From: a virus
IMG/VR virus record: IMGVR_UViG_3300024346_000138
Span: 1-43,829 of that record
Strand: one strand, 5' to 3'
DNA: 43,829 nucleotides
Part shown: in pieces, positions 10,309 to 39,271 of the stretch
Position numbering within the stretch: the stretch's first letter is position 1
Layout: each line of letters opens with the position of its first letter
Translations under genes and position numbers: made by a program
Notes under the pieces: generated by a model
What the model was told of the DNA's origin: nothing
What the model saw: only the letters and a program-made list of their open reading frames with translations
Databases searched by the model: none

Positions 10309-10566
10309 ATGTTTCCAAAGTTACAAGAAAACAACAAAGTCCAAAAAGAGTTAAAAAAGTTTGATGCAGCTATTAAACAAATAAAAAATATTCACGTTAA
10401 AAACTCGGCAGCAAACTTGTTACAAGAATTAAAAAACGAATATGAAATTATTGACGGATCTTTTTTAGGAACAAACGGTCCGGTAACTCCTGGCGTAGCA
10501 AGAGAATCTGCAATGAAAACAATGGATTTGCGTAGTAAACTTAATAGTCTGTTAAAGCGACGATAG
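10309..10566 (+). CDS. Small helical protein, unknown function
   Basis: The ATG at 10309 is chosen because TTGGAGAT lies just upstream and the previous stop ends at 10307. A longer reading frame from 10264 would overlap the cupin gene. The 85-residue product (MFPKLQENNKVQKELKKFDA...) is Lys-rich and largely alpha-helical, with a coiled-coil-like stretch over the first 50 residues. It then has 'DGSFLGTNGPVTPG' and a basic C-terminal helix ending LLKRR. I do not recognise it. Its place at the end of the gp14-gp15 operon suggests a virion-assembly or small accessory role. It overlaps the converging fibre gene by 15 bases. Confidence 0.6.
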   Translation: MFPKLQENNKVQKELKKFDAAIKQIKNIHVKNSAANLLQELKNEYEIIDGSFLGTNGPVTPGVARESAMKTMDLRSKLNSLLKRR

Positions 10567-15131: not shown

Positions 15132-16639
15132 CTATCATACCAATCAGTTAAGTACTCGTATTGATTTTTAAACATGTTTTCAACTAAATCTAATCTTGCA
15201 TTAGTGCAATCAATAAAATACTTTCCGTATCGTTCTTGAGATTCTGTTAAGTACGGCTCTACGTCTTTATATGCGCCGCCTGCGTGTAATACACTAAACC
15301 ATTGAGTAATATTAAACATACTACTTGGTGTTAAATTCATAAAGCGTTGAGGATAAGGCAAAAATGCTGATAATATATCTTTAATAAACTTTGGCATTTC
15401 TTCTAATTTTTGCTCACGTATTTCTTTCCAGTACGGTGTATCATTACGTGAACTAAAGTAATAGTGCGCCCAAACAAATGCTAGAATTTCTTCTGACATT
15501 TCACTAAAGCCTCTATTAATAAATCCTTTTGTTTCAGTATTCCAAATATTTCCAGTATTATTCAATAAATCAACAATGCTCATAACTGCACCTGTTGTAA
15601 ACGTAATGCCTGTTGCTTCTAACGGTTCAACAAATCCTGCACTTAGTCCAACTGCAATTACATTTTTTACTGCAATTTCTTTGTGATACCCGCATTTCAT
15701 TTTTAAATGATTTGCAGGAGCTACGTATTCTCCAATTGACTCACGCAACTCTGCTTCAGCGTCTTCTTTAGATATATGCTTACTAGAATATACATACCCA
15801 TTTCCTACTCTTGTAAAAATAGGAATAGTAAAGCGCCAACCTGCTTTCATTGTAGTTGCTTTTGTATACGGAAAACATTCTTCTTCTGGATTTTTATATT
15901 GTTTAGGTATAACTACTGCACTATCATTTAGCAGTATGTCGTTATAACTATGGAAGGGAATATTAAGTTCTTTTTCAAGTAATCTACTTTGAAATCCTGT
16001 ACAATCAATATATAAGTCTGCAGAATACTTATTTCCATTAGAGTCTATTAATGCTGTTATACCGTTTTGATCTTTTTGTATATTGTCTATTTTAGCATCA
16101 ATATGTTGTATTGTGTCGCCTAATATTTCTTTAAGAGTTTTAATTATATTATGAGCATTAAAATGTACTGCACCAAAGTGTAATGGCCCCATACGATGAT
16201 TTACATCTAAGTAGTCATCAAATTTTTGACATATGTTTTGTTTTGCAAGACGGTATGCAGGATGATAGTCTTTAAATTCTTTATTTGTTTTACCTATAAA
16301 GTAATCAGAGATATAATAATCTTCTGCAATTAATGTATTATCAGGAGAGTCGTTATCTACAAAGTACGGCTCATCATTCCATCCCTCAAGCTCAACACCA
16401 TACTTAAAACTAGCATCACTTGTATTCATCCATTGCTTTGGTGGTATACCGCATTTACCTAAAAAGTGTGCGGTGGCAGGTTGTGTTCCTTCACCAACTC
16501 CGATTGGCCCTGCACTGACATCTTCTATTAATGTTATTTTAGTGGGACGTTGTAAATTTCTAGACATATATGCAGCAGTTAGCCAGCCGCTTGTTCCGCC
16601 GCCAAAGATTATTATGTGTTGTACTTTATTTAAAAACAT
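15128..16639 (-). CDS. Flavin-dependent (tryptophan-type) halogenase
   Basis: This 503-residue protein has the full tryptophan-halogenase plan. 'HIIIFGGGTSGW' (GGGTSG at 13-18) binds FAD. 'GVGEGTQPATAHFLGKCGIPPKQWM' follows, then 'SFKYGVELEGW' with Lys79, the position of the catalytic lysine that carries or guides HOX in PrnA. 'AGWRFTIPIF' is the W-x-W-x-I-P signature with its second Trp replaced by Phe270. 'VGLSAGFVEPLEATGI' carries Glu341, the partner of the lysine. 'YIDCTGFQSRLL' is also typical. The enzyme would oxidise chloride or bromide with FADH2 and O2. A flavin reductase partner is not in the window. It overlaps the following oxygenase by 4 bases and follows the other oxygenase after 3 bases. 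The substrate is unknown and need not be free tryptophan. Confidence 0.92.
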   Translation of the reverse strand: MFLNKVQHIIIFGGGTSGWLTAAYMSRNLQRPTKITLIEDVSAGPIGVGEGTQPATAHFLGKCGIPPKQWMNTSDASFKYGVELEGWNDEPYFVDNDSPDNTLIAEDYYISDYFIGKTNKEFKDYHPAYRLAKQNICQKFDDYLDVNHRMGPLHFGAVHFNAHNIIKTLKEILGDTIQHIDAKIDNIQKDQNGITALIDSNGNKYSADLYIDCTGFQSRLLEKELNIPFHSYNDILLNDSAVVIPKQYKNPEEECFPYTKATTMKAGWRFTIPIFTRVGNGYVYSSKHISKEDAEAELRESIGEYVAPANHLKMKCGYHKEIAVKNVIAVGLSAGFVEPLEATGITFTTGAVMSIVDLLNNTGNIWNTETKGFINRGFSEMSEEILAFVWAHYYFSSRNDTPYWKEIREQKLEEMPKFIKDILSAFLPYPQRFMNLTPSSMFNITQWFSVLHAGGAYKDVEPYLTESQERYGKYFIDCTNARLDLVENMFKNQYEYLTDWYDR

Positions 16640-16642
16640 TTT

Positions 16643-17242
16643 TTATTCCTGATATGTGTATCTAAAATCAGCATTAAATGCCAATGATATTCTAGTATTA
16701 GTTGTCCGGTTGGGCATAACTTTATGTAATAGCCAATTTGGAAATAATAAAAGCATGCTTTGCTCTACTGCTATATTTACAATATTTGTATAAGTTGGTG
16801 TCTGATGTGGGAACGATACTACAAACGGATTTGGGCTTTTGAATTGTATATCGCCACTGCCTGGAGTAAATTTATGATAATATACTCCGCTTACTACATT
16901 TGGTTGATACCCGTGTTCGTGAAATCCAATTAACTGTTCAGTAGAAAATTTATTAAGCCACGAACTGTTTACATTAATACTATCAGTTTGATAACGTTGC
17001 CCAGTTTGTTCTAAGTAGTTTTTAACATGTTGTTTTATAACATCATTAGTAACTTTCATATCAAAAGTTGGTATGATATTCATCATATCATTACTAAAGG
17101 TTGTTTCAGCTGTATCGTTATCAGGTTGCCAATCATTTTTAAATATAGCACTAGACACTACATTATCTATTTCAATATCTAATAAGTCAGTATCTTCAAC
17201 AGTATGAATATAGATTGGGGTAGAGAAAAAGTTTTCAATCAT
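16643..17242 (-). CDS. 2OG-Fe(II) oxygenase-like protein (first in operon)
   Basis: This 199-residue protein is similar in plan to TIGR02466-type oxygenases: 'MIENFFSTPIYIHTVED' at the start, 'SSWLNKFSTEQLIGFHEHGYQPNVVSGVYYHK' with H108-x-H110, 'MLLLFPNWLLHKVMPNRTTNTRISLAFN' with His173 and Arg184. It would use O2, Fe(II) and 2-oxoglutarate to hydroxylate an unknown substrate. It sits between the methyltransferase fusion (4-base ATGA overlap) and the halogenase (3-base gap), so the three are made together. The HxH in place of HxD may still bind iron or indicate a halide-accepting site. Confidence 0.82.
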   Translation of the reverse strand: MIENFFSTPIYIHTVEDTDLLDIEIDNVVSSAIFKNDWQPDNDTAETTFSNDMMNIIPTFDMKVTNDVIKQHVKNYLEQTGQRYQTDSINVNSSWLNKFSTEQLIGFHEHGYQPNVVSGVYYHKFTPGSGDIQFKSPNPFVVSFPHQTPTYTNIVNIAVEQSMLLLFPNWLLHKVMPNRTTNTRISLAFNADFRYTYQE

Positions 17243-18906
17243 TTAGCTACAACAAGTATATATAACCCGTTCCACCATTGACTAATATCTTCAACATCAT
17301 TTAGCATTAGTTTTTCGTATGTAACATAACCTCCGCACTCATTAATGCCTTCTCTAGCACCATTAACTACTCCGTCCCAATTTGCATCATCAAATATTAA
17401 AACAGTTTCGTTTTTAAAAGTATTCCAATAATGTTTAACTACATTCTTTGTAGATTCTTGATCATGAGGACCATCGTAGAAAAACATGCTAAATGCATTT
17501 GACATATTTGTAGTATCAATTGCAAACATATCATTATTAATTACTTCAATTCTATTATTGCCTTTATACGGTTCAACATTTTTAATAAACTCATCTAAAG
17601 AGTTAGGAGGAGTAGTACTTCCATTAGCTGGCTGTATTTGCTCTTCCCACTTATCGATAGCAACAGCAAGAAGCATATTGTCTTTTAATACCGAACTTAG
17701 AGTTGCTCCTAAATACGATCCAATTTCTAAATAAGAGTCGACACCTTTTGCAATAGAGTTAAGAAGAGTTTGTACTCTAGGTGAAGTTAGCCCAGGTATG
17801 TCAACTTTTGTTGTAGGAATACCGCTTGACTCAACACAAGTAACTACATGCTTAACTAAATCGCTGTGATCAATTTCTGTTTTTGCTTTGTAAATTTTAT
17901 CGCAAAATTGACATTCCCAACAGTCAAATTTACAGTTCTTAATAAGTTTGCGCCATGCGTCAATAGGACGTTCTTTTAAATTTGTATCTTCTAAATATTG
18001 GTTAAATGTTTCTATTAATATTTCTTCGTTATCGTCCCATTTTTTAATTATAGTCATGGTTTCGAAAAGTCTACTTACTGCTTCTCTACCATGCATTTTA
18101 AATACGTCAATACCGCAATCATTAATCAATTCTTCCCAATCTTCTTTCCATGGCGGCAGATCAGAAGTTTTTAAATGTACTGCTGGATCTATAAAGTCCC
18201 ATTTAGGACAACTTACTCGACTTATAGGATCATTAAAGTATTGCGGATCGTTACCTTGTCTAGTATTATTATATTCAAAATGTTCTACCATCATAGGGCA
18301 GTTACCTAAACACCCTTCATTTGCTAATAAACTAATTTTAATTTCTTTTCCTAAATTATCCTTAATCCATTCTTTAGCGGCTTTAATGCGTAATAGCGTA
18401 TCTCTGTCACGCATTAAGTCTCTATCTAAATTGATATAATCAAACCCAACTTTAGCAAGATTTACTATTTCAGTTGCAGTTCTTACATCACGTAAAATAG
18501 TATTCTTAACCATTAACTCAGGAAATGCACGTTTTATTTGACCAGTTGCCATCCAGTGTGTATGTGGTATAGTAGCTATACGTACACCTGCATCATATAT
18601 AGGTTTGAAATTCTTTATAAAGAGATCTAAATTCTTTTGTGTCGGGGGAACTTGTATATTATTAAATGTTGCACTGATCGGAATATCTAAACTTTTTTGT
18701 ATATAGATAGCCATGTCAATAGCATGAGAATAGTCTTCGTTATGTATAAAGATATCTCCCATTGCATCTTGTGCAAAGGGGGAAATCCTCGAAGTAAAAT
18801 ATACATCGTAAATTAAATGTTTATATGTTTTTAGAAAAGAAATAAACTCGTCGAATTCTTCTTTACTTAATTTAGGATTTAAAGGTACACTGAATATCTT
18901 TTGCAT
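17239..18906 (-). CDS. Fusion: U32-like Cys-rich domain plus class I SAM methyltransferase
   Basis: This 555-residue protein has two parts. Residues 1-345 look like a TIM-barrel of the U32-peptidase/UbiU-V kind: 'YDVYFTS...', 'IPISATFNN', 'ANEGCLGNCPMMVEH' (Cys199, Cys203), 'VSCPKWDF' (Cys233) and 'NCKFDCWECQFCDK' (Cys325, 329, 332, 335). The cysteines could ligate an iron-sulfur cluster or zinc. Residues about 370-555 are a Rossmann methyltransferase of the Methyltransf_24 type: 'SYLEIGSYLGATLSSVL' is the SAM loop and 'FFYDGPHDQEST' the acidic motif. The methyltransferase call is firm; the U32-like call is tentative. It is the first gene of the modification operon, with a consensus sigma70 promoter. 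The ribosome site (GAGTGAG) is weak and lies within the operator arm. Confidence 0.75.
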   Translation of the reverse strand: MQKIFSVPLNPKLSKEEFDEFISFLKTYKHLIYDVYFTSRISPFAQDAMGDIFIHNEDYSHAIDMAIYIQKSLDIPISATFNNIQVPPTQKNLDLFIKNFKPIYDAGVRIATIPHTHWMATGQIKRAFPELMVKNTILRDVRTATEIVNLAKVGFDYINLDRDLMRDRDTLLRIKAAKEWIKDNLGKEIKISLLANEGCLGNCPMMVEHFEYNNTRQGNDPQYFNDPISRVSCPKWDFIDPAVHLKTSDLPPWKEDWEELINDCGIDVFKMHGREAVSRLFETMTIIKKWDDNEEILIETFNQYLEDTNLKERPIDAWRKLIKNCKFDCWECQFCDKIYKAKTEIDHSDLVKHVVTCVESSGIPTTKVDIPGLTSPRVQTLLNSIAKGVDSYLEIGSYLGATLSSVLKDNMLLAVAIDKWEEQIQPANGSTTPPNSLDEFIKNVEPYKGNNRIEVINNDMFAIDTTNMSNAFSMFFYDGPHDQESTKNVVKHYWNTFKNETVLIFDDANWDGVVNGAREGINECGGYVTYEKLMLNDVEDISQWWNGLYILVVAK

Positions 18907-25042: not shown

Positions 25043-28000
25043 TTATCTCAACATATAGTTTAATGCTAAAGGTATACCTGTTACAGATTTTGTAAAGTTT
25101 ACGTTTGCATTGATATTTATTAGTTCTCCACTCACAGTGGTTATTTGGTTGGTATTTATGAATATGTCACCAGCTGTAACACTGTTAACATTAAGTGACG
25201 CACCACCGCCACCAATTTGTGCTTCGATATATGCTTTAACTGCTCGCTGTGTTGGTACAACACTATCGCTATTTGCAGTAAAGAATGGATCTGTACTAAA
25301 TTCAGTAATTGAAGCTGAGTTACCGCCTAGTGTAACTGTTCCTAGTGATAGTTCTTGTAGACCAGCAATATTAAATGCTTCAGCATCAAGTGTAGCAACA
25401 CCTGTTGCCTGTTCAATACTAAACAAGTCGCCAACTCTAAAGTTACCATCTTGGTCAGTTGCTGTGAAGAATACTCGTCCACCTGCACTATCAGTGGTTT
25501 CTTTATTTTGATCTGGCAAGTTAACTGGCGGACCATTTACTTCATTTGGATAGTTTGAATCAGCAAAGTTACCTGTTCCGATATCTAAGAAGTCATGTCC
25601 TGTTAATCGTACCTGACTAAATCTAATTCTTAGTTCTAATTCAGTACCTTCAGTTGGTGCTTCGTCAATTTCTAATGTTGGCGAAACTTGTAAGAACCCA
25701 GTAAAGCTACCTTCGTTAGTTCCTCTAAAGCTAACAGTATTAACAAGTTTAAATACTCTTCCAGGCAAACTTGTAAATTCAATATTAGAACCTGCTACTG
25801 GTCTTGAACTTAGTCTCTTAACAGCTACAAATGCTCCTGATTGGAAGAAGTCTGCAGATCCATTAGATGCATTTTCATTTACATCTGATGTTGCTGTAAT
25901 AAATCCTGTTCCTCTATTTGCAAAAGTAGGATTAGCAAGTAGTCCAGTTCCTACACGTACTTGTATGTTTACATCTTCAGTATTGTTAGGATCAGTTACA
26001 GTAATTGTTGGAGTACTTGTATAGTTTGAGCCTGGCTCTTCTAGTCTAATAGCAAATACTTGCTCATTTGCAGTACTTGCACGACCTCTTGCTTGAACTC
26101 CTAATCTAACATTCATTACATCAGCAGTAATGCCAGAACCTATTGCTACAAATTTTGGTGTCTTATCTGGGTTACCAAATGCAATTGCACCGCCTGCACT
26201 AAAGTTAAAGCCTGCGCCGCCTTCAGTTGCCCATGTTAGCCCATATTCAGAATATGTTAGTTCATTAGAGTTACTAGTAACAGCAAACATTCCTTGTCCG
26301 TAAGCAATTTTACTATATGTACCAGTTGGTAAATCTTGTTGTGTCCAAGATACACCGTCTAAACTGTATGCTGCTGTTCCGTCTGTAGCAATAGCAATAA
26401 ATCTACCATTACCCCACGATATGTCTATCCACGGTGCGCTTGGCAATCCGGTACCTGCACTCCAAACTAATCCGTCCGCAGAGTACATTGTATCTGTTGT
26501 ACCGCTTCTAAGAGCTACAAATTTTCCTGCTCCATTTGCTAGTGCAGAATAGTTTGTACCAGTAAGAACTGTGCCTGTAGTTGACCAAGTAACGCCGCCG
26601 TTGTCACTATACACAACGTCAGTATCATTACCACTAATTGCAATAAATCTACCAAGGCTTTCTGCAACTTGTCCAAATGCAACCATTGATGCACCTGCTG
26701 TTGCAAATGTACCTGGTAACGTAACACTAGTCCATGCTACACCATCTAAACTATATGCAGCAGGGCCGCCTTCGGATATTGCTATAGCAACACTTTGTTT
26801 AAATGTTGACGATCCGTCATCTATTAGTCCACTTGTAATATTATCCCAAGAGTTACTTGCTCCAGCATCTGGTAATGAATTTGAAACCCACGTAACACCG
26901 TCAACACTATATGCGCCGCCGATATTAGCATCTGGTATCGCAACAAATACTCCTTTTTGTCCGTAGCCGCTAAAGTCAAAGTCTACAACAGCTCCGTTTA
27001 CATCAACAGTAGTAATTGTAATTACTAGATCATTTAATGGAGTTGCACCACCTAATGACGTACCTGGTATTTCACAATGATTTAGTCTTCCGTAGCCTGC
27101 ACCACCTTGGTTAAGAGTTACATAGTACTTTTCACCATTACGTGTTACATCAAATGTTGCTCCAAGACCATCAGATTCTGTTAATGTTACTACATTAGTA
27201 TATTGCGCCGATGTAGTAACATATGTTGCATCAGTATAAGTATTTGAAGTTATAGTTGCTTGTGTTGCAGTATTTGTCGGAGCACTAAATGCTACTGCTG
27301 GTTCAATTTGATATGTTGTTGTAGCATTTGGAGCAACAATAGGTGTTCCAGGAACAACATGATTCCATTCAGTAACTGTTACTTCTTTAGTACCAGCATC
27401 GTATGTTTGAATAATAGCATACTGTCCATTACCTGCACCACCTACAAGCTGTATTCTAGTTCCAGGGTATGCTGAACTTAAATTACCATCTGTTGCTGAT
27501 ATAAATATTCCTGTTAAGCTTCCTGACTGTGCAACGTTTGACACTGTTGTATAACCAGCACCACCTGTTGTAACACCTTCAGTTTCACTAGGAATAATTC
27601 TACCTTCAAATACGCCTAAGTCTCTAAATTCGTCTGTAATTACAACTTCGTTTGCACCGCCGCCGAATATTTCAAGTTCAGCTTCAGTATAATCATTACC
27701 TGCATGTGTAAATTCTATGTTAAGTATTTGGTTAGCATCTGTGTTAACTAATCCTACAGTAGCGTTATACTGTGTAAGATTGTCAACAACAGCTGATGTT
27801 GCAGTTTCTTCTGGATCAACACCTTCTGCTACAGAACCAAATTTACCGTATGAATTGTTACCGTTTGTAGCACGTACTCTACCGCCGGACTCTGCCAAGT
27901 ATCCCATGTGTGAGTAGTATGTAAACACTGACACAAGTTCTGCTCTACCGTTGTTAAGAATGTGTGCGCCAATACCGTCACTTATGACTTGTGTAAAGTC

Positions 28001-31000
28001 GTTACTAACAATTGAATCATTACCGCCGTTATGCAATGCACCGTCAATTCTTTGACCAGTTGCACCAAATCCGAATGTTGTACAGTTTTGTACATACGGT
28101 GAACGTGCAGTAATCCATACACGTTTATCATCTGGACCCCAACCTGGATCAAGTGATGCATATGCTCCTGCTGTTGGTCTACGTGTTCCGTATATATTAC
28201 TTGCACCTAGATCACCATTTAGACCTTGCATAGTTTGTAGTCTTAATCCTGTACCATTACGTAAGTAATAGAAATCTTCTTCTTGCGATCCTATCATTGC
28301 ATTTACATAATATCTTGCTGCAAGTCTTGTTTTATAAGCAGCAGGACGATAAACTACAACATCGTTAGTGTAAGTTCTCTTCCATTCCTGGCCCCATACT
28401 AGATCCCATTTCATAGCATTAATATATTCTTTAATATCTCTAGCACAAATAGCTCTATTATATGTATATGCTGTTTTTACAATAAACTGGTTATTTGTTC
28501 CGTCTACTTGTACATACACGCCGCCTACTGTATTTGAAACAGCAAACTCAGTAGCACTAAAGACATCAGCAACATAAAACTTATTATTTAGGAAGAAGTT
28601 AGTATTTGTTAAAATGTTATTTGGATTTTCAAATGCTATTTCCATTCCAACTTTTAGCCAACCTGTATCTGCAACAGTAAGTGTATACAGATCTACTCCG
28701 CCTGATGCACCACCAATTGTTACAGTAGTATCAGTTACAGTTGACCTAAAGTAATCATTGACATATGCTATTGCTTCGTCTACAATAAATTCTTTATTCA
28801 CCTCTAGTTGTCTAACAGCATTATAAACTTCAATATCGTCTGTTTGTCTATTACCACCTTCATTTGATCCTGCCCAGATTGTATCTTGTACTAGATCCCA
28901 TGTTTCATTAATTCCAGTAATAGCTGTAGCTTCAGAAATTTCTGCAACAGCTAGTCCTAGCGCAAATTGATTTGCTGCTATTGTTGCTGTTTTTTGCGGA
29001 CCTGTTACTTTATTACTAGTTCTACGTAAGTAAGACAAGCCTGCATTAACACTTGCATAGTTTGTTCCTAGCATCCAATCATATCTAGCAGCATCAATTA
29101 TAAGTCCTAAATCTCTAGAACACTTAGCATGATCGTATTTAAAGTCATTGTATGTATTTGTAATAAACTGAATTACATTTAATATTACGTCTGATCTACT
29201 ATTGTCAATAGTTGTTTTAGCAGTTGTAAATTCAGCATCTGCCCATGTTACACTTGGATATGACACTGCGCCTAATACTGCCGACAATGTTGTAGTACCG
29301 TCAATTACATCACTAACTGTTTCTACAAGTGCTTGAACTGCACTTCCTTCAGTTGCACTTGCTGGTGTTCCTAGTGTAGTTTGTAGTGTAGTATTTCCAG
29401 TTTGTGCAGTTACAGAAGTCTCTTGTACGATATCTGACATAATGCTTGCTAAGTGATTGTAAGCTGCTGCTGTTTCTGTAGTTTGACCATCTACTTGTAT
29501 TGTTCCGTTTACAAAATAAGATTCACAAATTCTACTAGTAGCTTGGTTACCGCCATATAAGATATCATAACTTGCTGCGTTAACAATGTATTCTACATCT
29601 CTTGCACACTTAGTACTATCATAAACTAAAGAACCATAGTTTTGTGCAATATACGCAATAACATCATCTTTCATAAAAGCAATGTTTGCTTGTAAGTTAT
29701 CTTTTGCATCTACTTTATTTTGGTCAACGCCTGATGGGCTTGGTAATACTAATGCATTAACTGTGCCGTCTCCTGGCATTGCTGTACCTAACGACCCGTT
29801 TTGGATAATATCAACTATTTCGTTATATGCAGTATTAAGTCTAGTTAAGTCATTGCCAGAACCAAGTAAAACTCTATACTGATCTCTAGCATTTCTAATA
29901 GCACCTACAGTTTCAACTCTTTGGTTTTGTAGATTGTATGCATTATTTGGGCGCTGATAAGCAATGCCGTTAAATGTAGCGTTATAGTTTGTACCAAGCG
30001 CAATATCATATGCTGTATCAGTAATAATGTTTGTTAAGTCTCTGCGGCACTTTGCACTATTATATTTAAAGCTACCAAAGTTTGCATTTATAAAGTCAAT
30101 TGTTTTTTCTTGTATAACTGGTAACGCTGCAACTAAGTTTGTGCTATCTGATTGTAATCCAACTGAAGCACCTGCAACACTTGGATATGTTATCGATGCA
30201 GCTGAGATACCGTTAGTGACCGCAGGTATAACTGTATTATTAAACAATGCTGCAATAGCGTTTGATACTGTTGCATTACCTGGCTTACCACTAATTTGTG
30301 TTACGCCTGTTTGATATGTTGGAGTAACTGTAATATCACGTCCTACTGTTTGTAATAAATCACGCAAGTATCCGTAAGATGCAATAGTAGCAAGCTTTTG
30401 CGGAGTGTCAATACTTACATCGTCAATATCAACAATACCTGCTGCATCAGTTTCAAAAACAATTTCTGTTTGCAATGCAGTAGCAGTAAACGTATACGAA
30501 ACACTGCTTGTAGATGTAAGATCTATTGCAGTAGCTAATGCTGTGTCTGAATTTGGATTTCTTGCAAATACACTTGCTCCGTCAGCAGTATGAGTAACTG
30601 AAACGTTTACTGTATATTCTTGACCTGGCGTAGTATAAACAGTTTGCAATGCAGTACCTGCAGTTCCACCGGCAGCAACAAGTTCGTTACCTGTTATTGC
30701 AAATGCACCATTTGTAATAGTCCAATCAGTTGTGGTTGCAAAATCGCCGTTAGTTATTAAACCAGTTATTTTATTAACATTTCCACTACCGTCATAGTAT
30801 GATTTAGTAGCATTATATGTCTGCCAGTTGCCGCCATAAACTAGATCGTATGCAACTGCATCTATTATAAATCCAACATCTTGTTTACATTTTGTTTTAC
30901 CATATTCAAGATTTGGATATTGATCTGCAATATATGCAATAATTTCTTCTTGTATAAACTCTTTGTTAGAAGCATTTAGTTCTATTGCATAACCGTACTC

Positions 31001-33766
31001 TGGTACACCTAACTCATGTGGCTTAGGTAAAATAGCATTTTCTTTAATACCTGTTCCAATTGCAACTCTGTCAGCAATATTTCTTGCTAGGCGCTTTGTT
31101 TCAGTAGCTACAGGAGTAGTTTCTGCGTAAGGCCACGTAACATCTTGTGTTGTTGTATTGCCTGTAGTTGGAGTAACTGCTGAACCTATTACAACATCTC
31201 CTACAATTGCTTCAATTCTTTTAATTGCTTGGTAACTGTAGCTGATATCTTTTTTGTCTGTTAATGTACTATTAATAGTTGTTCTTGGCTGTACATTAGT
31301 AGAACGAAGTTCGTCTCCTATAATACAGCATTCTGCTGGAACAACAATTGGAAGTACTTCGTAGTACTTTCCGGTTGACACTTTAATTAATGTATTTCTA
31401 ATTAATCTTTCAGGTATATTAGTAGCAACACCTGCTGTTATTGCATCTGTAATAATCTTTGCTAGACCTTGAATGTCTGCATAAACACTTTCTGTTCTTA
31501 GTAATTCATTAGTAAACTGTACTGATACTCTAGTACTATTATCACCATTTGTTGTTTGATAGTTAACTGCTGGTGCTGTTTGATCTAATATATTTTCAAT
31601 TAAAGTAATGCCGTAATTTATAGAAGCATTAGTTTCAGCTTTTTGTGTTAAGTATGGTGATCCTACTGTATCATTTACATAAGATAATGCTGCTTCTCTA
31701 GAACGTACATTACCGCCGTGTGTAATATCCCAAATTAGAGCATCAACGATTAGACCCATATCTCTTTCACATTTTTCTGTCTTGTAATCAAATGCTGTAG
31801 TAAATGGTGCAAGGTTATTTGTTATTTGGTACTGTGTCCATTCAACAATTTCTCTTTGTATAAATCTTCTGTTAAGTTCTAATAACTGTGCTGCATCTGG
31901 ATTTCTAGCACCTTGCTCAACTTGCTGTGCTGCATACTTAATTGTTTTATAAGGTTTATCAATTGTTGTACCATAAATTGGAGCAGGTAAATCTAAACCG
32001 TGTTCTGCAACATAATAAACATCAGCAGTAGAACCAATAAATGCCCATTCCGGAATACCAGTTGAACTTACTGTTAATACTTGTCCGTCTCTACCTACTG
32101 GTAGTCTAGTTGGTGCTGAACCACTATAATAAACTAGGTCGCCTTTGGTTGTAAGTACACTAGACTCTGAACCAATTGCTAATGCACTCCAAAACTGTCC
32201 GCTATCTGCTAAGTCTGGGCGTGATCCTTCAGCACCTGAGCTTAGTGAACTATAATCGTCGCCTTCTGAAATATGTCCTAATATACATACATATGAATTG
32301 TCGCCATAACGTACAACATCACCTTCGTAATACTGTGCATCATCTCTCCACTCACCTCTCCACTCAAAACCGTAGTTTAATCTTGTCCAATAAACTTCGT
32401 TAGGTGGTATTTGGTTTTGGTGATCTGCAATACAACGATATGTATAGCCGCCGTGTCTTACAACGTTACCTACTTGATATTCGTATTGTGACGAATCTGC
32501 TCCCCAGTCGCCGATGAATTTAAATCCTTCAGTAAATAGGTCCCAGCTTGCTGGAACAACAGTTGGTCGATCATTTTCGTTATCTGTTTTACTAATATAC
32601 TGGTTACCACCGTAGCGTACAATGTCGCCTGGTTGGTAAACACCATTATATGCCCATTCATTTTCAAATTGGAAGCCTTCTACAAACTTTTCCCAGTTTG
32701 CACTATCGTCTGTAAATGCAGCAGCACTTGTATGATAGCTAGTTGCAATCCATAAGCTCGCACCGTACTTTACAACATCATTAACAAGATATTTTCTACC
32801 TGTAAGCCATTCATTTTGATAGCGGATACTTTGATTAAATGCGTCCCACTTTATTAAGTCATTTTCTAAACCTAAGCCTGTGCCAATTCCTGTAGACTGG
32901 TGCGGATCGATACAAACAAAACTTGCACTACCGTACTTAACAAAATCACTTAAACGGTAATGGAAATCTTCGTGCCATTCGCCCTTCCAATCTAATCCAT
33001 CAGCAAATACATTCCAATTGGCTAAATCTGTTTCTAAACCTAAGCTAATAATTTCTGCACTTGCATTGCTGCTCATGCCAGCATGTTGATAGCAGAAATA
33101 ATGAAGTGTGTCTGGAGCGTCATCTGGAACAGTAATACGCATTTCTCTAGTAGTAGCAGCAGCAAATCCTGCATCGTATGCTGCGGCATCAACTACTTCG
33201 ACAGCATCTAGGAAATATGTTACACCGTCAGTATATATTGCTCCGCTGTTGTGTGTTCCGTCTTTAGTAGTACTAATAACCATTGGATGTCTAGCAACGC
33301 CGGCACCAGCGAATAAGTTAGTAGCACTATTTTGCTGCCATATATATGTGTTGCCTCTTACCATTTGAATGTCTGGAGCCGCAACGCCGTCTATATAAAA
33401 TACGCCGTTACTTACATTAGGGTCGTCTGCTACTGTGATTACATATGTTTCGGAGTCGGACTGTGTGGTAGAAGTATGAATGGCATCACAAATATATAAC
33501 CTTGCACCGTACTTTACAATATCATTGTACACATATGATGTGCCGTTAGCCCAGTCACCCTTCCAAGTTTGACCATCACTAACTAAATTCCACTTTGTCG
33601 GAACTACATCTAAATCTGTAAAAAAGTTAGCATCACTGCTATGTCCTTCTACACATATATACGCTTTCCCACCAAAAGCAATTACGTCATCCTTGTAGTA
33701 AACAGTGCCTGTGGTCCAGTCACCTTTCCATACAAAGCGTATTCTACCTAACTTAAATTCTGCCAT
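25043..33766 (-). CDS. Giant fibre/baseplate protein, 2907 residues, multi-domain
   Basis: In order: seven Trp-rich modules of the form W-x(6-9)-Y-x(3)-D-x-V-x-x-G-x-x-Y (about 12-500), like CBM5/12 repeats. A cupredoxin-like domain is inserted after the second (about 100-245; His160, Cys225, His228, Met231 with C-x2-H-x2-M spacing). Then a 'DVYYVAEHGLDLPAP...KPYKTIKYA' beta-helix entry and 'CCIIGDELRST', six helical repeats with K/I-C-x-R/Q-D (about 670-1800), a beta-helix block 'LDPGWGPDDKRVWI...GALHNGGNDS' (about 1870-1990), Asp-box-like 'YSLDGVSW' blades (about 2280-2540), and a C-terminus 'DQDGNFRVGDLFSIEQATG...VPTQRAVKAYIEAQ'. It is a host-surface binding virion protein of the type in marine T4-like phages. 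A late box lies at 33790-33797 with TGGAG before the ATG. Confidence 0.85.
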   Translation of the reverse strand: MAEFKLGRIRFVWKGDWTTGTVYYKDDVIAFGGKAYICVEGHSSDANFFTDLDVVPTKWNLVSDGQTWKGDWANGTSYVYNDIVKYGARLYICDAIHTSTTQSDSETYVITVADDPNVSNGVFYIDGVAAPDIQMVRGNTYIWQQNSATNLFAGAGVARHPMVISTTKDGTHNSGAIYTDGVTYFLDAVEVVDAAAYDAGFAAATTREMRITVPDDAPDTLHYFCYQHAGMSSNASAEIISLGLETDLANWNVFADGLDWKGEWHEDFHYRLSDFVKYGSASFVCIDPHQSTGIGTGLGLENDLIKWDAFNQSIRYQNEWLTGRKYLVNDVVKYGASLWIATSYHTSAAAFTDDSANWEKFVEGFQFENEWAYNGVYQPGDIVRYGGNQYISKTDNENDRPTVVPASWDLFTEGFKFIGDWGADSSQYEYQVGNVVRHGGYTYRCIADHQNQIPPNEVYWTRLNYGFEWRGEWRDDAQYYEGDVVRYGDNSYVCILGHISEGDDYSSLSSGAEGSRPDLADSGQFWSALAIGSESSVLTTKGDLVYYSGSAPTRLPVGRDGQVLTVSSTGIPEWAFIGSTADVYYVAEHGLDLPAPIYGTTIDKPYKTIKYAAQQVEQGARNPDAAQLLELNRRFIQREIVEWTQYQITNNLAPFTTAFDYKTEKCERDMGLIVDALIWDITHGGNVRSREAALSYVNDTVGSPYLTQKAETNASINYGITLIENILDQTAPAVNYQTTNGDNSTRVSVQFTNELLRTESVYADIQGLAKIITDAITAGVATNIPERLIRNTLIKVSTGKYYEVLPIVVPAECCIIGDELRSTNVQPRTTINSTLTDKKDISYSYQAIKRIEAIVGDVVIGSAVTPTTGNTTTQDVTWPYAETTPVATETKRLARNIADRVAIGTGIKENAILPKPHELGVPEYGYAIELNASNKEFIQEEIIAYIADQYPNLEYGKTKCKQDVGFIIDAVAYDLVYGGNWQTYNATKSYYDGSGNVNKITGLITNGDFATTTDWTITNGAFAITGNELVAAGGTAGTALQTVYTTPGQEYTVNVSVTHTADGASVFARNPNSDTALATAIDLTSTSSVSYTFTATALQTEIVFETDAAGIVDIDDVSIDTPQKLATIASYGYLRDLLQTVGRDITVTPTYQTGVTQISGKPGNATVSNAIAALFNNTVIPAVTNGISAASITYPSVAGASVGLQSDSTNLVAALPVIQEKTIDFINANFGSFKYNSAKCRRDLTNIITDTAYDIALGTNYNATFNGIAYQRPNNAYNLQNQRVETVGAIRNARDQYRVLLGSGNDLTRLNTAYNEIVDIIQNGSLGTAMPGDGTVNALVLPSPSGVDQNKVDAKDNLQANIAFMKDDVIAYIAQNYGSLVYDSTKCARDVEYIVNAASYDILYGGNQATSRICESYFVNGTIQVDGQTTETAAAYNHLASIMSDIVQETSVTAQTGNTTLQTTLGTPASATEGSAVQALVETVSDVIDGTTTLSAVLGAVSYPSVTWADAEFTTAKTTIDNSRSDVILNVIQFITNTYNDFKYDHAKCSRDLGLIIDAARYDWMLGTNYASVNAGLSYLRRTSNKVTGPQKTATIAANQFALGLAVAEISEATAITGINETWDLVQDTIWAGSNEGGNRQTDDIEVYNAVRQLEVNKEFIVDEAIAYVNDYFRSTVTDTTVTIGGASGGVDLYTLTVADTGWLKVGMEIAFENPNNILTNTNFFLNNKFYVADVFSATEFAVSNTVGGVYVQVDGTNNQFIVKTAYTYNRAICARDIKEYINAMKWDLVWGQEWKRTYTNDVVVYRPAAYKTRLAARYYVNAMIGSQEEDFYYLRNGTGLRLQTMQGLNGDLGASNIYGTRRPTAGAYASLDPGWGPDDKRVWITARSPYVQNCTTFGFGATGQRIDGALHNGGNDSIVSNDFTQVISDGIGAHILNNGRAELVSVFTYYSHMGYLAESGGRVRATNGNNSYGKFGSVAEGVDPEETATSAVVDNLTQYNATVGLVNTDANQILNIEFTHAGNDYTEAELEIFGGGANEVVITDEFRDLGVFEGRIIPSETEGVTTGGAGYTTVSNVAQSGSLTGIFISATDGNLSSAYPGTRIQLVGGAGNGQYAIIQTYDAGTKEVTVTEWNHVVPGTPIVAPNATTTYQIEPAVAFSAPTNTATQATITSNTYTDATYVTTSAQYTNVVTLTESDGLGATFDVTRNGEKYYVTLNQGGAGYGRLNHCEIPGTSLGGATPLNDLVITITTVDVNGAVVDFDFSGYGQKGVFVAIPDANIGGAYSVDGVTWVSNSLPDAGASNSWDNITSGLIDDGSSTFKQSVAIAISEGGPAAYSLDGVAWTSVTLPGTFATAGASMVAFGQVAESLGRFIAISGNDTDVVYSDNGGVTWSTTGTVLTGTNYSALANGAGKFVALRSGTTDTMYSADGLVWSAGTGLPSAPWIDISWGNGRFIAIATDGTAAYSLDGVSWTQQDLPTGTYSKIAYGQGMFAVTSNSNELTYSEYGLTWATEGGAGFNFSAGGAIAFGNPDKTPKFVAIGSGITADVMNVRLGVQARGRASTANEQVFAIRLEEPGSNYTSTPTITVTDPNNTEDVNIQVRVGTGLLANPTFANRGTGFITATSDVNENASNGSADFFQSGAFVAVKRLSSRPVAGSNIEFTSLPGRVFKLVNTVSFRGTNEGSFTGFLQVSPTLEIDEAPTEGTELELRIRFSQVRLTGHDFLDIGTGNFADSNYPNEVNGPPVNLPDQNKETTDSAGGRVFFTATDQDGNFRVGDLFSIEQATGVATLDAEAFNIAGLQELSLGTVTLGGNSASITEFSTDPFFTANSDSVVPTQRAVKAYIEAQIGGGGASLNVNSVTAGDIFINTNQITTVSGELININANVNFTKSVTGIPLALNYMLR
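28380..31800 (-). repeat. Six diverged repeats around a Cys-Arg/Gln-Asp motif in the giant fibre
   Basis: Within the 2907-residue protein, six segments share Y-x-x-x-[KI]-C-x-[RQ]-D-x-x-x-I-x-[ND]-A-x-x-[YW]-D-x-x-x-G. Examples are 'EKCERDMGLIVDALIWDITHG', 'AKCRRDLTNIITDTAYDIALG' and 'AKCSRDLGLIIDAARYDWMLG'. Spacing is roughly 150-250 residues. Most copies are followed by a Tyr- or Arg-rich helix. The 1823-residue paralogue has only one degenerate counterpart without the Cys. Confidence 0.75.
32265..33730 (-). repeat. Seven Trp-rich carbohydrate-binding-like modules (2907-residue fibre)
   Basis: Each module contains a [GN]-[DE]-W start, a Tyr, D-[IVF]-V, then [YF]-G and an aromatic strand, e.g. 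'KGDWANGTSYVYNDIVKYG', 'NEWLTGRKYLVNDVVKYG', 'GEWRDDAQYYEGDVVRYG'. Similar to CBM5/12 chitin-binding modules by motif. A cupredoxin-like domain splits the array after the second module. Confidence 0.75.
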
Positions 33767-33799: not shown

Positions 33800-36700
33800 T
33801 TACTGCGTGGTGTCGTTAAATGTTTTTAACACTAGCATTTGACTTAAAAATGTTCCTTGGACCCTAGGTAAATTACCAAATGCATCTACACCTGAGAAGT
33901 CTACCGGAACATTTATTTGTAATGTTTCATCGTTATTCATATTAAATTCGTTTGCTTCGCCGCCAATAATAACTTGACCAGCAACTAATCTATTTGTTTC
34001 AAGATCCTCGCCACCTACAGATAATCTGTCTGCGAGGAATGTTGCAATTGCACGTTGTGTTGGAACAACGTTATTACTATCTTCTGACATAGTCGGGTCA
34101 GTAGAAAAATCTCTAACTGCTGCGCCCGAACCACCTAGTCTAACTCCGCCTAGTGATAGTTCTGAAAGCCCGTCTAAGTCAAAAAACTCAGCACTAATAG
34201 TAACAATACCTGTACTCTGTTGCACACTAAATAATTCACCAGTTCTAAAGTTACCGTCTTGGTCTGTACTTGTATAAAATACTCTACCGCCGTTTGTTTC
34301 ATATACTTCATTTTCAGGTGCTGCAACAAAATAATTTCCGTCTGCATATAGTTCTGGATAATTTGATTGAATGAAGTTTCCTGTACCAATATCTAGGAAA
34401 TCGTGCCCAGTAATTCGTGCTTGACTGTATAGTGATCTTAATTCAACACCTGTAGCGTGAGCAAGATTGTCTTCATTATCTATAGATGGTGAAATTTGCA
34501 TTTGAACTAATCTAGTTGCATTACCAGTTCCGTCATCTCCTAAGTCTGTTATCTTAACACCGTTAAATAATTTTAAATCATTAGGATCTTCAGTAAGAGG
34601 ATCAAGAATAGTATTAATTCTTATTTGAACACCTGGACCTGGAACTGTATCAACACCAGCAAGTGTTATTGTATTAGCTTCTGGTATAATATCAGCATAA
34701 CCGTCACCAGTTAAAGTAACTACTGTAGAATTTGATCTGTATCCCGAACCTCTACTCTTAAAGCTAGGTTGAGCTATTGTTCCATTACCTATTCTTTTTT
34801 CTAGTTCGACCTCTGTTACAAACTGTGTGTCTGTTACAGTAATTGTCATATTATCAGGATTAGGTGAATATCCACTACCCGGATCCCATATCTTTACACG
34901 TTGGAATATTCCAGTAAAAGTATCTGATCTAAGTTTTGCTCGCTTACCTGTTTTAATATTTGCAACTCCGCCTAATGTTACACCGTCAGCTAGTAACACC
35001 CATTTTGGATCACCGTCAAGTGACGCAAATGATAACGTTTTCCACGACTGAGACGATGCTAAATTATTTTGTCTCCATACCAGCCCATCTTCAGTAGTAG
35101 CATTTAAACTTGTTGGAGTTCCGCCATCAGTACTGATTACCATAAACACACCTTGAGCATATTTACAATCTACATATGATAAACTAGATCCGCCATTTTG
35201 CGGAACATTTTCACCTTGAATAAAAGTTTCGCCTTTATCAACACTATACATAACTGATCCGTCTGATCTAATTATTATAAATCTATTATCTCCGTAAACT
35301 AAACTTACAATAGTCGGTGCACCGCCTAGTGGTAAAGCAGTACGTGATGTCCAAGTGTTCCCGTTATTATCTGAAGTTATAACAGCACCTGATTCAGCGA
35401 TACAAACATATCTTCCTTGACCATATGCAACTTTAGTGTAAGTGTCTGCTGCTACTGTAGAACTTGAACTCCATGTTAAACCGTCAGTACTGTATGCAAA
35501 TTCTGTTGCTCCGTTTGCAACTACCACAAATCCTGTTGGACTTGCTGCTGCATCTGACCAGTCTTCTGTTGCTGGTAATGCTCTTGTAGTCCAGTTTTCG
35601 CCTGTATAAGAAAAGTTATATTGATTAGTTCCTGATGCTATTGCTATAAATCTATTTTTGTTAGCAAGTACTTTAATCCAAGTTGCTGTTATATCAAGAT
35701 TAGATTCTTGCCAAGTAGTACCAGTATCACTGTATACAACAAAGTTTGGATCTGCTAATGCTACAAATCTTCCGCCTCTACCTGTACCTGATGATTTAAT
35801 AGTAGCAATACTATTTGTACTATCATCTGATGTAGTTAATACATCAATTATAAGATCATTGTCAGGAGTTGCACCTCCTAGTAAATCACCTCTGATAGTT
35901 AATCTATCATTCTCAGCATATCCAGCACCAGCATTGTTTATAGATACAAAGTAGTCACTACCTCTTCTTGAAACATTAAATATTGCTTCAATTTGAGGTA
36001 ATCCAAATGTTTCGCCAGTTCCTAAGCCGCCTGTTAACCCTCCGTAAGTATTTGTTATTCCACCAAAGTCAACGTCAATAAATGTTCTTTCTGCTGGTAA
36101 ATTTTGTACAGTAGAAGTAAACCCTGGATGACTAACTGCCATTCTCGGTTCTATTCTATATCTAGCAGTTGAATCAAATGCTGCTACTAGAGGTGTACCA
36201 GGAATTAAATGATCCCATCCTGGCTGATCGTCAGATTCTCTTGATACAGTAACTTGTCTAGTTACTGCACTGTATCCAGATATATAACCGTATTGTCCGT
36301 ATCCAGTGCCTTGAATAACTAGTATTCTCATGCCTGCAACATCTTCATAAAATTGTGTTGCATCACTTGTACTTAATTTTAAGTATTGGCTTGCATCTAA
36401 AGTTTCTTGGGCGTTACCTTGTCTTACTAGATAATTTGTACCGCCTTCGCTTCCTGATCCTTTAGTGTTTATAAGTCTAACATTATATAATGAGCCATCT
36501 CTAAAGTCATCAAATTCTACATTAACGCCAGCGCCAGCACCTGTAATTGTAGCCGATGCTGATTTATAGTTCTCGCCACAATGCTCGTATTCAAACAATG
36601 CTATACTATCTACTGTTCCACCGGAATCAGCAGTGTCTACAAAAGCTTGATTATTTCTATTCCATATTGTTGCTGTATCAGGTATTTCTGTTGGATCGTT

Positions 36701-39271
36701 TCCGTCTGCAATTGACCCGTAATCACCATAAGAGTTGTTGCCGTTTGTAGCACGTATAATTCCGCCGTCTTCAGCAAAATATCCTACAGCACAATAATAT
36801 GTAAACACAGAAACAAGTTCTGCTCTGCCCCCATTGGTTATCCAAGCGCCTATCCCGTCACTTAGTACTTGGGTAAAATCGTTTGATGTCATAGACTTGT
36901 TGCCGCCGTTATGTAGGCTGCCGTCTACTTTTTTACCTACACAAGAACTGCCAATATTTGTTACGCCTTGGATATAAGGTGATCTATTATTAATCCATAC
37001 ACGACTATCATCTGGTCCCCAACCTGGATCTAATGCAACAAATGCACCACCTGTTGGACGTTGGTATAAGTCAAATACACCTGGAGGATTAAGCGTTCCG
37101 ACCAATCCTTTTAATGTACATTGTCTAATTCCTGTAGTATCTCTTACCCAAAATAGATCATCGTTTTGTGATCCGTTGGCAGCATTTATATATCGTCTCG
37201 ATGCAAGTAAAGTTGCATAGTTTCCGCTATATTTCAAATCTCTTGCAAGGCCTCTAAATATAGAATTTACATCTTCGTACACTGTGTCTTTGTCTACAGT
37301 AAACCCTTCTTGTAGTAAGAACGCATAAATTTGTCCACTAATAAAAATAATGTTTTGGCTAATATTTTCGCCACCATTAACAAAATTAGTGTCTGCGTTT
37401 AATGTATTAGATCCGGTCATTACTGGACTAATTTCTCCAGTAAACACGTTAAATTCTACATTATTTTTATAGTCTGTAAATAATTCAACACATCGTTGTG
37501 CTACGTCTTCCGAACCAAAAGGACCATTTAAAACTTGTGTTTCGGTATTACCTGTTAATGGTGTGATTGGAACATTTAATAATAAGTCAAGAATAAATGT
37601 TTCAGTAAATGTTAAATAATCTTGTACTTGGTTATAATTATCGTAGTAATCTTGTTTCCTAGGGTTTGCAACAATTGTAGTAGATCTTAATTCGTCTCCC
37701 ATTATTGCACAACCTGCTGGAACTGTTATTGGACCAATTTCTTCGTAATAGCCTGTTGCTATTGATATTTTTACTGGATTGCCAGCTATAAAATTATCTT
37801 CAACAAATTCGGATGCATACTTAACTGTTTTAAATGGGCGCAAAGGAGTTCTACCGTAACCTGGTCTGTTTATTCCTTCGTTACTAACATATATAACATC
37901 GCTATCAGTTAAAAAGTTTCTCCAAAATAAATCTAAATCAGTAGTAACAGATAATGCTTGTCCTACTTCGTCGCCTATTTTTAATCTAGTGTCTCCTACA
38001 GTACTACCGTCATCAGCACCTGTTCTACTTAAACCAAATGTTAATAAATCACCCTTGTCGTGAAGTCCGCCTGGCTGTCCTGCTTGTACAAGTATATCCC
38101 AATAATCGTAGCCGCTTCCGTTATCGCCTGGAAAGTTTTCAGCAGTTGCTTGGTGTTCAAAATTACAAAAGTATGCAGTACCTAGATGATATACTATTTC
38201 ACCAACTGCATAATATCCTGTAGTACTCCATGGACCAACAAACTTTTTACCTGGTATAATTAGTTCGTATATTTCTGGGTCTTGCCAAACCAACGTACTA
38301 TCGTCGCCGTCGTTAATATTAACATCTCTTAGAATTTGGTATAGATAGCCGCCTCGTACAACAATGTCACCTGTTTTGTAAGGAGATGTTATATCCCAGT
38401 CGCCTCTAAAATTATATGTTTTTGCAAGTACAATCCAATCTTGGGTACTGTCGCCACCTGATGTATAACCAGCTGTTACTCTGCTAGGGTCGCTATCAAT
38501 ATTGTTTGCAACTGCGTAGTACACATGTCCGCCATATCTAACAATATCACCTAAATTATATGCAGTTAAACTTGACCATTCACCGTCAAACTGTGTACCA
38601 GGAAATTCTAATGTAAACTTTGTATCATCAAGTTGCACAACACCCGAAGTATGAGTTTCTGTACAACGGAACACAGAAGCACCATATCTTACAATATCAT
38701 TTTTTCTATAAACGGTTTCAGTTATCCAAGAATTTCTATATTCGTCACCTACATGAAATTCTAACCAATCTGTTTGGTTGTCTTCTAAAGTAGCACTACC
38801 AATATGTGCTACTAGACATTTGTAAACATATCCGTTATACTTTACAAGAGCACCGTGTGCATATGTAGTATTAGGTGTCCAGTTAGAAACAAAACTAATG
38901 CTTTTAGTAAATACTTCCCAGTTTGCAATTTCAGTTGCAAAACTTTGCCCGTTATGTGCTTCAATACAAAGCCAAACAGTACCGCCATTTAAAACAAGAT
39001 CGCCCTTGTTATAATTTGTAGCAGTTACCCATTCGCCGATAAAACTTTTACTTACAGTCATTACGATCCATCTTGGATCTGGTTGCGGCGGAACACTATT
39101 AGGTATTGTAGCATTTAAGTCACTGCCAAAATCACCTGATGATGTGTGACCTTTAATACACACATACGATCTACCGTTTATCCTTGCAATATCGTCTCGT
39201 TTATAATCTGAACTTGGAGCCCAATCTCCCTTCCAGTTATACTTAAATCTATCAATTTTAAATTCTGCCAT
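33800..39271 (-). CDS. Giant fibre/baseplate protein, 1823 residues, paralogue of the 2907-residue one
   Basis: The start 'MAEFKIDRFKYNWKGDW' parallels 'MAEFKLGRIRFVWKGDW' of the neighbour. In order: seven Trp modules (about 12-375), 'VIYVSNEGINRPGYGRTPLRPFKTVKYASEF' (beta-helix entry), 'AGCAIMGDELRSTTI', one degenerate helical segment, 'LDPGWGPDDSRVWINNRSPYIQG' and 'SLHNGGNKSMTSNDFTQVLSDGIGAW' (beta-helix), Asp-box-like blades ('YSDTGTTW', 'YSTDGLTW', 'SDNNGNTW'), and the family C-terminus 'STDQDGNFRTGELFSVQQSTG...VPTQRAIATFLADRL'. It lacks the cupredoxin domain and the Cys repeat expansion. AAAGG precedes the ATG. It is probably a baseplate-proximal fibre. Confidence 0.85.
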   Translation of the reverse strand: MAEFKIDRFKYNWKGDWAPSSDYKRDDIARINGRSYVCIKGHTSSGDFGSDLNATIPNSVPPQPDPRWIVMTVSKSFIGEWVTATNYNKGDLVLNGGTVWLCIEAHNGQSFATEIANWEVFTKSISFVSNWTPNTTYAHGALVKYNGYVYKCLVAHIGSATLEDNQTDWLEFHVGDEYRNSWITETVYRKNDIVRYGASVFRCTETHTSGVVQLDDTKFTLEFPGTQFDGEWSSLTAYNLGDIVRYGGHVYYAVANNIDSDPSRVTAGYTSGGDSTQDWIVLAKTYNFRGDWDITSPYKTGDIVVRGGYLYQILRDVNINDGDDSTLVWQDPEIYELIIPGKKFVGPWSTTGYYAVGEIVYHLGTAYFCNFEHQATAENFPGDNGSGYDYWDILVQAGQPGGLHDKGDLLTFGLSRTGADDGSTVGDTRLKIGDEVGQALSVTTDLDLFWRNFLTDSDVIYVSNEGINRPGYGRTPLRPFKTVKYASEFVEDNFIAGNPVKISIATGYYEEIGPITVPAGCAIMGDELRSTTIVANPRKQDYYDNYNQVQDYLTFTETFILDLLLNVPITPLTGNTETQVLNGPFGSEDVAQRCVELFTDYKNNVEFNVFTGEISPVMTGSNTLNADTNFVNGGENISQNIIFISGQIYAFLLQEGFTVDKDTVYEDVNSIFRGLARDLKYSGNYATLLASRRYINAANGSQNDDLFWVRDTTGIRQCTLKGLVGTLNPPGVFDLYQRPTGGAFVALDPGWGPDDSRVWINNRSPYIQGVTNIGSSCVGKKVDGSLHNGGNKSMTSNDFTQVLSDGIGAWITNGGRAELVSVFTYYCAVGYFAEDGGIIRATNGNNSYGDYGSIADGNDPTEIPDTATIWNRNNQAFVDTADSGGTVDSIALFEYEHCGENYKSASATITGAGAGVNVEFDDFRDGSLYNVRLINTKGSGSEGGTNYLVRQGNAQETLDASQYLKLSTSDATQFYEDVAGMRILVIQGTGYGQYGYISGYSAVTRQVTVSRESDDQPGWDHLIPGTPLVAAFDSTARYRIEPRMAVSHPGFTSTVQNLPAERTFIDVDFGGITNTYGGLTGGLGTGETFGLPQIEAIFNVSRRGSDYFVSINNAGAGYAENDRLTIRGDLLGGATPDNDLIIDVLTTSDDSTNSIATIKSSGTGRGGRFVALADPNFVVYSDTGTTWQESNLDITATWIKVLANKNRFIAIASGTNQYNFSYTGENWTTRALPATEDWSDAAASPTGFVVVANGATEFAYSTDGLTWSSSSTVAADTYTKVAYGQGRYVCIAESGAVITSDNNGNTWTSRTALPLGGAPTIVSLVYGDNRFIIIRSDGSVMYSVDKGETFIQGENVPQNGGSSLSYVDCKYAQGVFMVISTDGGTPTSLNATTEDGLVWRQNNLASSQSWKTLSFASLDGDPKWVLLADGVTLGGVANIKTGKRAKLRSDTFTGIFQRVKIWDPGSGYSPNPDNMTITVTDTQFVTEVELEKRIGNGTIAQPSFKSRGSGYRSNSTVVTLTGDGYADIIPEANTITLAGVDTVPGPGVQIRINTILDPLTEDPNDLKLFNGVKITDLGDDGTGNATRLVQMQISPSIDNEDNLAHATGVELRSLYSQARITGHDFLDIGTGNFIQSNYPELYADGNYFVAAPENEVYETNGGRVFYTSTDQDGNFRTGELFSVQQSTGIVTISAEFFDLDGLSELSLGGVRLGGSGAAVRDFSTDPTMSEDSNNVVPTQRAIATFLADRLSVGGEDLETNRLVAGQVIIGGEANEFNMNNDETLQINVPVDFSGVDAFGNLPRVQGTFLSQMLVLKTFNDTTQ
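38140..39240 (-). repeat. Seven Trp-rich carbohydrate-binding-like modules (1823-residue fibre)
   Basis: Modules include 'KGDWAPSSDYKRDDIA', 'GEWVTATNYNKGDLVLNGG', 'SNWTPNTTYAHGALVKYNG', 'NSWITETVYRKNDIVRYG', 'GEWSSLTAYNLGDIVRYGG', 'GDWDITSPYKTGDIVVRGG' and 'GPWSTTGYYAVGEIVYHLG'. Same number and motif as in the 2907-residue paralogue, so the array predates their divergence. Confidence 0.75.

Follow-up and report, generated by a model that had tools for sequence, protein, structure and literature searches.

Introduction

Type-1 copper proteins such as AcoP, rusticyanin, amicyanin, plastocyanin and the domains of copper nitrite reductase are either free periplasmic proteins or domains of enzymes. 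In this study, we analysed a stretch of 43,829 nucleotides of viral DNA (IMG/VR virus record IMGVR_UViG_3300024346_000138, positions 1 to 43,829; hereafter, the window), in which two domains having the predicted fold and the ligand set of these proteins are located within phage tail proteins instead. One of them, referred to as d1, lies near the N-terminus of a giant tail/fibre protein of 2907 amino acids (aa); the other one, d2, is the C-terminal part of a 547-aa wedge/fibre connector.

Three described phage systems come close to these domains. Cyanophages encode plastocyanin (petE), a copper-binding member of the cupredoxin superfamily (PMC3037559, available part); petE stands alone as a small gene and is linked to the photosynthesis of the host, whereas d1 and d2 are domains of structural proteins. 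Metal-binding residues in the tail fibres of marine phages have likewise been reported: the accessible sections of PMC11705849 deal with HxH iron sites in the long tail fibres of the T4 gp37 type, with iron sites in the tail fibres of marine phages and with the Ferrojan Horse idea. Those sites differ from d1 and d2, which are predicted to be globular cupredoxin domains, in fold, ligands and metal. Finally, d1 and d2 match the domain-holding stretches of two protein families of T4-like cyanophages, PHROG 708 (baseplate wedge subunit) and PHROG 677 (wedge tail fibre connector), both without copper annotation. With these families, d1 has only the domain in common, as the rest of its 2907-aa carrier is a fibre with CBM modules.

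None of the searched portions of the open-licence papers, including PMC11705849, PMC10966104, PMC10665884, PMC3037559 and PMC2784084, described a phage tail domain of the cupredoxin or type-1 copper kind. It is the setting that is new, not the fold.

Results

Predicted Fold and Ligand Set of d1 and d2

A sequence-only reading of the window had placed a second, independent cupredoxin-like domain at nucleotides 33060-33470, with the copper ligands His160, Cys225, His228 and Met231 of the 2907-aa protein. All four residues were found exactly at these positions, and the span was essentially right, the core of the domain comprising residues ~105-242. The ligand set of d2 consists of His474, Cys529, His532 and Met535 of the 547-aa protein. 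The two sites had been described as the same in ligands and spacing; this was correct for the ligands and for the identical Cys-His-Met spacing, but not for the distance from the first His to Cys, which is 65 residues in d1 and 55 in d2. The Cys-His-Met spacing of both domains is that of amicyanin, to which d2 aligns. The motif C-x2-H-x2-M was seen twice in all stop-to-stop frames of at least 100 aa (17,356 aa), once in each of the two carrier proteins, against an expected count of ~0.016 for the composition of 29 window genes.

The AlphaFold2 model of d1, obtained from an alignment of d1 and 57 other rows (all viral contigs), had a mean predicted local distance difference test score (pLDDT) of 89.6 and a predicted TM-score (pTM) of 0.84. 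For d2 (aligned with 38 other rows), these values were 93.7 and 0.87. Both models were compared with the PDB. The d1 model matched nine chains at E <= 1e-3, all of which were AcoP or rusticyanin, i.e., type-1 (blue) copper proteins, and the first matches of the d2 model were rusticyanin and AcoP as well (E 1.6e-5). A second aligner brought the d1 model to two-domain laccases (Z 9.3; root-mean-square deviation (rmsd) 2.9 over 111 residues) and the d2 model to copper nitrite reductase (Z 11.3; rmsd 2.4 over 109 residues). The cupredoxin-like fold proposed from the letters of the window was thus borne out by structure prediction. By their models and PDB matches, both domains are predicted to form the cupredoxin beta-sandwich, and the ligands His ... 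Cys-x-x-His-x(2-4)-Met (or Gln) are present on the C-terminal loop.

Since a plain phmmer search with d1 alone against the PDB returned nothing relevant, profiles were required for matches at the sequence level. The profile of d1 and its relatives gave 14 distinct matches at E <= 0.1, and that of d2 and its relatives gave seven at E <= 0.01. The matches of both profiles were all plastocyanins, pseudoazurin, amicyanins, copper nitrite reductases or copper oxidase. In the profile alignments, the C-x-x-H of the family, and partly the first His too, was placed on the plastocyanin ligands. Taking the models and the profiles together, we consider it very probable that d1 is a cupredoxin in fold and that its type-1 ligand set is intact.

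Retention and Loss of the Ligand Set

The conservation of the ligands was examined using an iterated profile on 162 loci, which gave 144 domains at E <= 1e-5 (for the scans of insertion sites, tandem domains and insert-free records, the cut-off was E <= 1e-3). Five domains in which at least one ligand column had no letter were left out of the count, as were copies of more than 85% identity, so that 139 and then 62 remained. All four ligands were present in 52 of the 62 non-redundant copies (46 with Met and six with Gln as the axial ligand), none in eight and one in two. In 5000 shuffles, copies of the none-or-all kind averaged 31.9 and never exceeded 40, against the 60 observed, a result that overstates the case because the shuffles are blind to kinship and all eight empty copies belong to a single lineage. 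When the degenerate rows were kept in the conservation ranking, Cys was 2nd, the second His 4th and the first His 5th of the 103 columns. In the alignment A5, His, Pro, Cys and His were invariant; this was set aside as evidence, as the rows of A5 had been chosen for kept ligands.

In a 91-row tree, which had few columns and left many forks open, the ligand-free copies corresponded to four changes (bootstrap 3-4). As these copies were nested in ligand-keeping groups, the pattern reads as a repeated loss of the whole set. The proteins of five phages (Syn19, Syn33, metaG-MbCM1, Syn9 and S-SM1) were informative in this respect. In each of them, the connector terminates in a d2-like domain with four ligands, and the subsequent wedge protein contains tandem domains, the first with four ligands and the second with none. 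The tandem domains are a built-in contrast, in which ligands are retained and lost within one protein and one domain family.

Several scans were baited with ligand-bearing peptides, which biases the counts. As a correction, a second sample was made via the N-terminus of the fibre. In its 12 insert-free records, 22 places were found, of which 14 were HCHM, one HCHQ, five degenerate and two cut short, and at least one complete ligand set was present in nine of the 12 records. That the ligand set is under selection is well supported by these alignments.

Two further observations concern the variation of the site. In copper sites of the stellacyanin type, Gln serves as the axial ligand instead of Met while the rest of the site is complete; here, this exchange was seen in relatives of the Cyanophage P-RSM6 kind (L008-L018, L172) and, apart from them, in L042. 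Open frames of ~4,600-5,300 aa in G015, G016, G017, G019 and G025 (L167, L171, L175, L178 and L181) carry a ligand-poor branch of the domain family, a second lineage with the metal set lost.

Insertion of d1 into a Fibre Module

The N-terminus of the 2907-aa protein consists of short Trp-rich modules matched by Pfam CBM_5_12 (E 7.2e-26, five stretches), and d1 lies inside the second of them. The tail fibre family phrog_9851 matched residues 259-454 (E 3.9e-70). The Pfam and PHROG scans of this carrier as a whole covered residues 1-455.

The N-terminal 94 residues of the fibre had at least 598 relatives, and the insertion site was compared in the best 80 of these (66-80% identity). A domain at the same site was present in 12 of the 80, in which 145 residues separate the HTS of the module from its next Trp, whereas the module was uninterrupted in the other 68, where this distance was 10-21 residues. 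The interruption of the Trp-module array, which had been read from the window itself, was therefore confirmed by relatives without it. According to the sequence-only reading, a loss of Cys, His or Met in close homologues would have spoken against its interpretation; instead, H, C, H and M were present in all 12 inserts, six representatives of which had 40-47% identity to d1. As 12 of the 80 relatives have the insert and all of these keep the ligands, the domain is gained and lost in the fibre, with the metal set retained while it is present. The G+C content of d1 was 0.425, the 95th percentile of its own gene, which is suggestive of an acquired module, though not decisive.

Kinship and Co-Occurrence of d1 and d2

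The insert was found in 13 records, namely the window and 12 others. Eight of them also contained a d2-type domain with four ligands 21.0-23.6 kilobases (kb) downstream; the other five stop 6.7-17.5 kb downstream of the insert, too short to reach the d2 gene. As d2 was present in all eight records that were long enough, the pairing of both domains within a single phage, as first noticed in the window, is general, although several of the 13 records are near-copies and the number eight overstates the independent cases.

In tblastn searches, d1 matched 265 and d2 matched 262 of 50,697 phage records, nearly all of them Synechococcus and Prochlorococcus phages. The labels seen under the matches were hypothetical, unknown, baseplate wedge, wedge-fibre connector, tail pin, tail fibre and structural protein; cupredoxin was in none of them. 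A search with d1 alone in viral contigs returned one near-identical contig only. PHROG 677 was matched by both d1 and d2. The best family of d1 was PHROG 708 (E 7.7e-22, profile positions 555-687), matched by seven of seven insert-type domains. Among predicted viral protein structures, 59 matches were obtained at E <= 1e-3, and many of the named ones were cyanophage tail or structural proteins. In fold, d1 also matched, more weakly, BFVD A0A481Z6J5, A0A481Z7Q7 and A0A481YVH3, 'beta-sandwich proteins' of Pithovirus and Marseillevirus records.

The profile-profile comparison between the d1 subfamily and the d2 subfamily, both of few rows, was weak (probability 55%, E 1.2e-4), and that of d1 with the intermediate group A6 was strong (99.9%). 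The kinship of d1 and d2 is based on the shared PHROGs, on the iterated profile (seeded with both) and on the intermediates. Judging from these comparisons, d1 and d2 are to be regarded as paralogues, two old and well-separated branches (the main halves of the tree) of one widespread family, and not as separate inventions. The claim that d1 is a second copper-site domain thus stood, while its independence had to be given up.

An A6 scan of bacterial and archaeal genomes, which reaches close relatives only, found one locus with intact ligands, on a Pelagibacter single-cell contig (L162:4800-5576, plus strand). It encodes a 258-aa protein with the domain and the full ligand set, and the neighbouring frames looked phage-like by inspection.

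Coordinates and Other Features of the Window

The positions of the two domains and of their carriers are listed in Table 1.

Table 1. Location of d1, d2 and related features in the window.
Feature	Positions	Strand	Basis
Giant tail/fibre protein carrying d1, 2907 aa	25043-33766	minus	Open reading frame call; phrog_9851 match
d1, cupredoxin domain with short flanks (predicted), residues 97-248; core ~105-242	33023-33478	minus	AlphaFold2; PDB fold and profile matches
His160 codon (first of the predicted copper ligands)	33287-33289	minus	Pairs with plastocyanin His in profile alignment
Codons 225-231, C-Y-Q-H-A-G-M (Cys225, His228, axial Met231)	33074-33094	minus	Intact in 12/12 same-site homologues
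First part of the CBM5/12-like Trp module interrupted by d1, residues 65-97	33476-33574	minus	Pfam CBM_5_12
Second part of the CBM5/12-like module interrupted by d1, residues 244-256	32999-33037	minus	Comparison with insert-free relatives
d2, related cupredoxin domain (predicted), C-terminal residues 425-547 of the 547-aa protein	10555-10923	minus	AlphaFold2; fold and profile matches
547-aa gp9-like wedge/fibre connector carrying d2	10552-12195	minus	phrog_677, E 6.6e-61

Repeated 'YSxDGxxW' stretches are present in both giant tail proteins (25043-33766 and 33800-39271, minus strand) and, by eye, look like beta-propeller (Asp-box-like) repeats. The tail-gene region 14553-18906 (minus strand) holds enzyme genes for a tryptophan-halogenase-like flavoprotein (Pfam E 5.4e-98), two 2-oxoglutarate (2OG)-Fe(II) oxygenases and a two-part protein with a terminal methyltransferase domain. 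The 1092-aa tail sheath (1674-4952, minus strand) is nearest to jumbo Pseudomonas phages of the PA5oct kind (46% over 70%) and not to cyanophages, to which the cupredoxin matches belong instead.

Discussion

The explanation we prefer is that a cupredoxin with a type-1 ligand set has been inserted into a module of the fibre, is paired with d2 in the connector and plays a copper-locked structural role. As a whole, we give it a probability of about 0.5. Computation supports the family, the fold, the four ligands, the place of insertion and the co-occurrence; the uptake of copper and its role are inferred. Type-1 sites are preformed by the fold, and free copper is scarce in the cytosol. Because of this scarcity, each domain would take up its one copper at or after lysis, probably on contact of the virion with the periplasm or sea water. 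The copper would pin the ligand loop to the beta-sandwich and so may make the module in the baseplate/fibre region rigid and stable; the iron held by HxH sites inside the long tail fibres of T4 is a precedent. Copper is probably bound in the virion, and, given copper, the chances of a structural role are about even. We favour a structural lock over electron transfer because of the exchange of the axial Met for Gln, the ligand-less relatives in the same proteins and the nature of the fibre copy as an accessory insertion.

Other explanations were considered on the same evidence. A chance motif in a fibre protein without the cupredoxin fold would agree with the fact that d1 was not called a copper protein in the single-protein Pfam scan, but it is contradicted by the number of motifs seen over that expected and by the fold, profile and conservation results, which makes it extremely improbable. 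The site may also be real and hold another metal (zinc, or Cu(I) only), or it may be a leftover that folds metal-free. Zinc can be bound by Cys, His, His and Met, and ligand-free relatives persist, so the fold as such is independent of metal; the all-or-none pattern of the ligands, with Gln as the sole common axial substitute, fits type-1 copper instead, and we regard this alternative as unlikely.

Two explanations accept copper and assign it an active part. In nearly all known cupredoxins, the type-1 site serves electron transfer, and AcoP and rusticyanin, the proteins nearest in fold, have redox functions, which speaks for electron exchange with components of the host envelope or for redox sensing as a trigger of the tail. 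Such a role is nevertheless very unlikely in view of the replacement of Met by Gln in six of the 62 copies, which would shift the potential, and of the repeated loss of the whole site in the carrier proteins; moreover, neither a partner nor a catalytic copper domain was seen. Copper-loaded tail domains might otherwise serve as a lure recognised by a copper-uptake or copper-binding surface protein of the host, similarly to the Ferrojan Horse, the iron version of which is published (PMC11705849, accessible sections). The carriers are indeed classed as tail fibre and baseplate, and the fibre copy varies among close relatives, as host-range parts do. As the domain is also found in wedge and connector proteins that are conserved across cyanophages, and not at a variable tip, we consider the lure quite unlikely.

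Several observations weigh against the structural, copper-bound cupredoxin that we prefer. The fold matches of d1 are distant, with TM-scores of 0.37-0.52 (0.37-0.59 by either length). Pfam PF00127 (Copper-bind) left d1 unmatched at E <= 1 and gave d2 an E of 0.22, under the cut-off, and the NCBIfam amicyanin model TIGR02657 gave d2 16.2 bits against a cut-off of 110.2 and left d1 unmatched. As these cut-offs were missed, d1 and d2 are distant members of the fold, outside the Pfam plastocyanin/azurin family as modelled; PF00127 matched two of the 58 rows of the family alignment A4 at E <= 0.01 (best 1.1e-6). In plastocyanins, the first His is followed by Asn, and d1 has Pro in its place; His-Pro for His-Asn sets the domain apart from these type-1 copper proteins. 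In three of the 12 insert-free records, only degenerate or truncated copies were found. Finally, a stretch of S-CREM2 including wedge proteins found by mass spectrometry (PMC10665884, available part) contained no match to the domain. The virion proteome of S-SM1, which has the domain, comprises 41 proteins according to the available part of PMC3037559.

If the sites hold copper, a group of viruses that is common in the ocean would have blue-copper centres in its tail machine. The metallochemistry of phage tails would then be extended by a further metal and a further fold, as a copper parallel to the Ferrojan Horse. A part of two PHROG families, which were until now read as baseplate proteins only, gains a meaning, and the presence of the domain in the cultured cyanophages Syn9, S-SM1, S-TIM5, Syn33 and Syn19 makes the question testable. 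Tentatively, and at somewhat less than even odds, marine T4-like phages including cyanophages may carry several type-1 copper centres in the baseplate and fibre, with the metal needed for the stability or firing of the tail; their copper-carrying virions would be of a class so far undescribed and may amount to a marine reservoir of bound copper.

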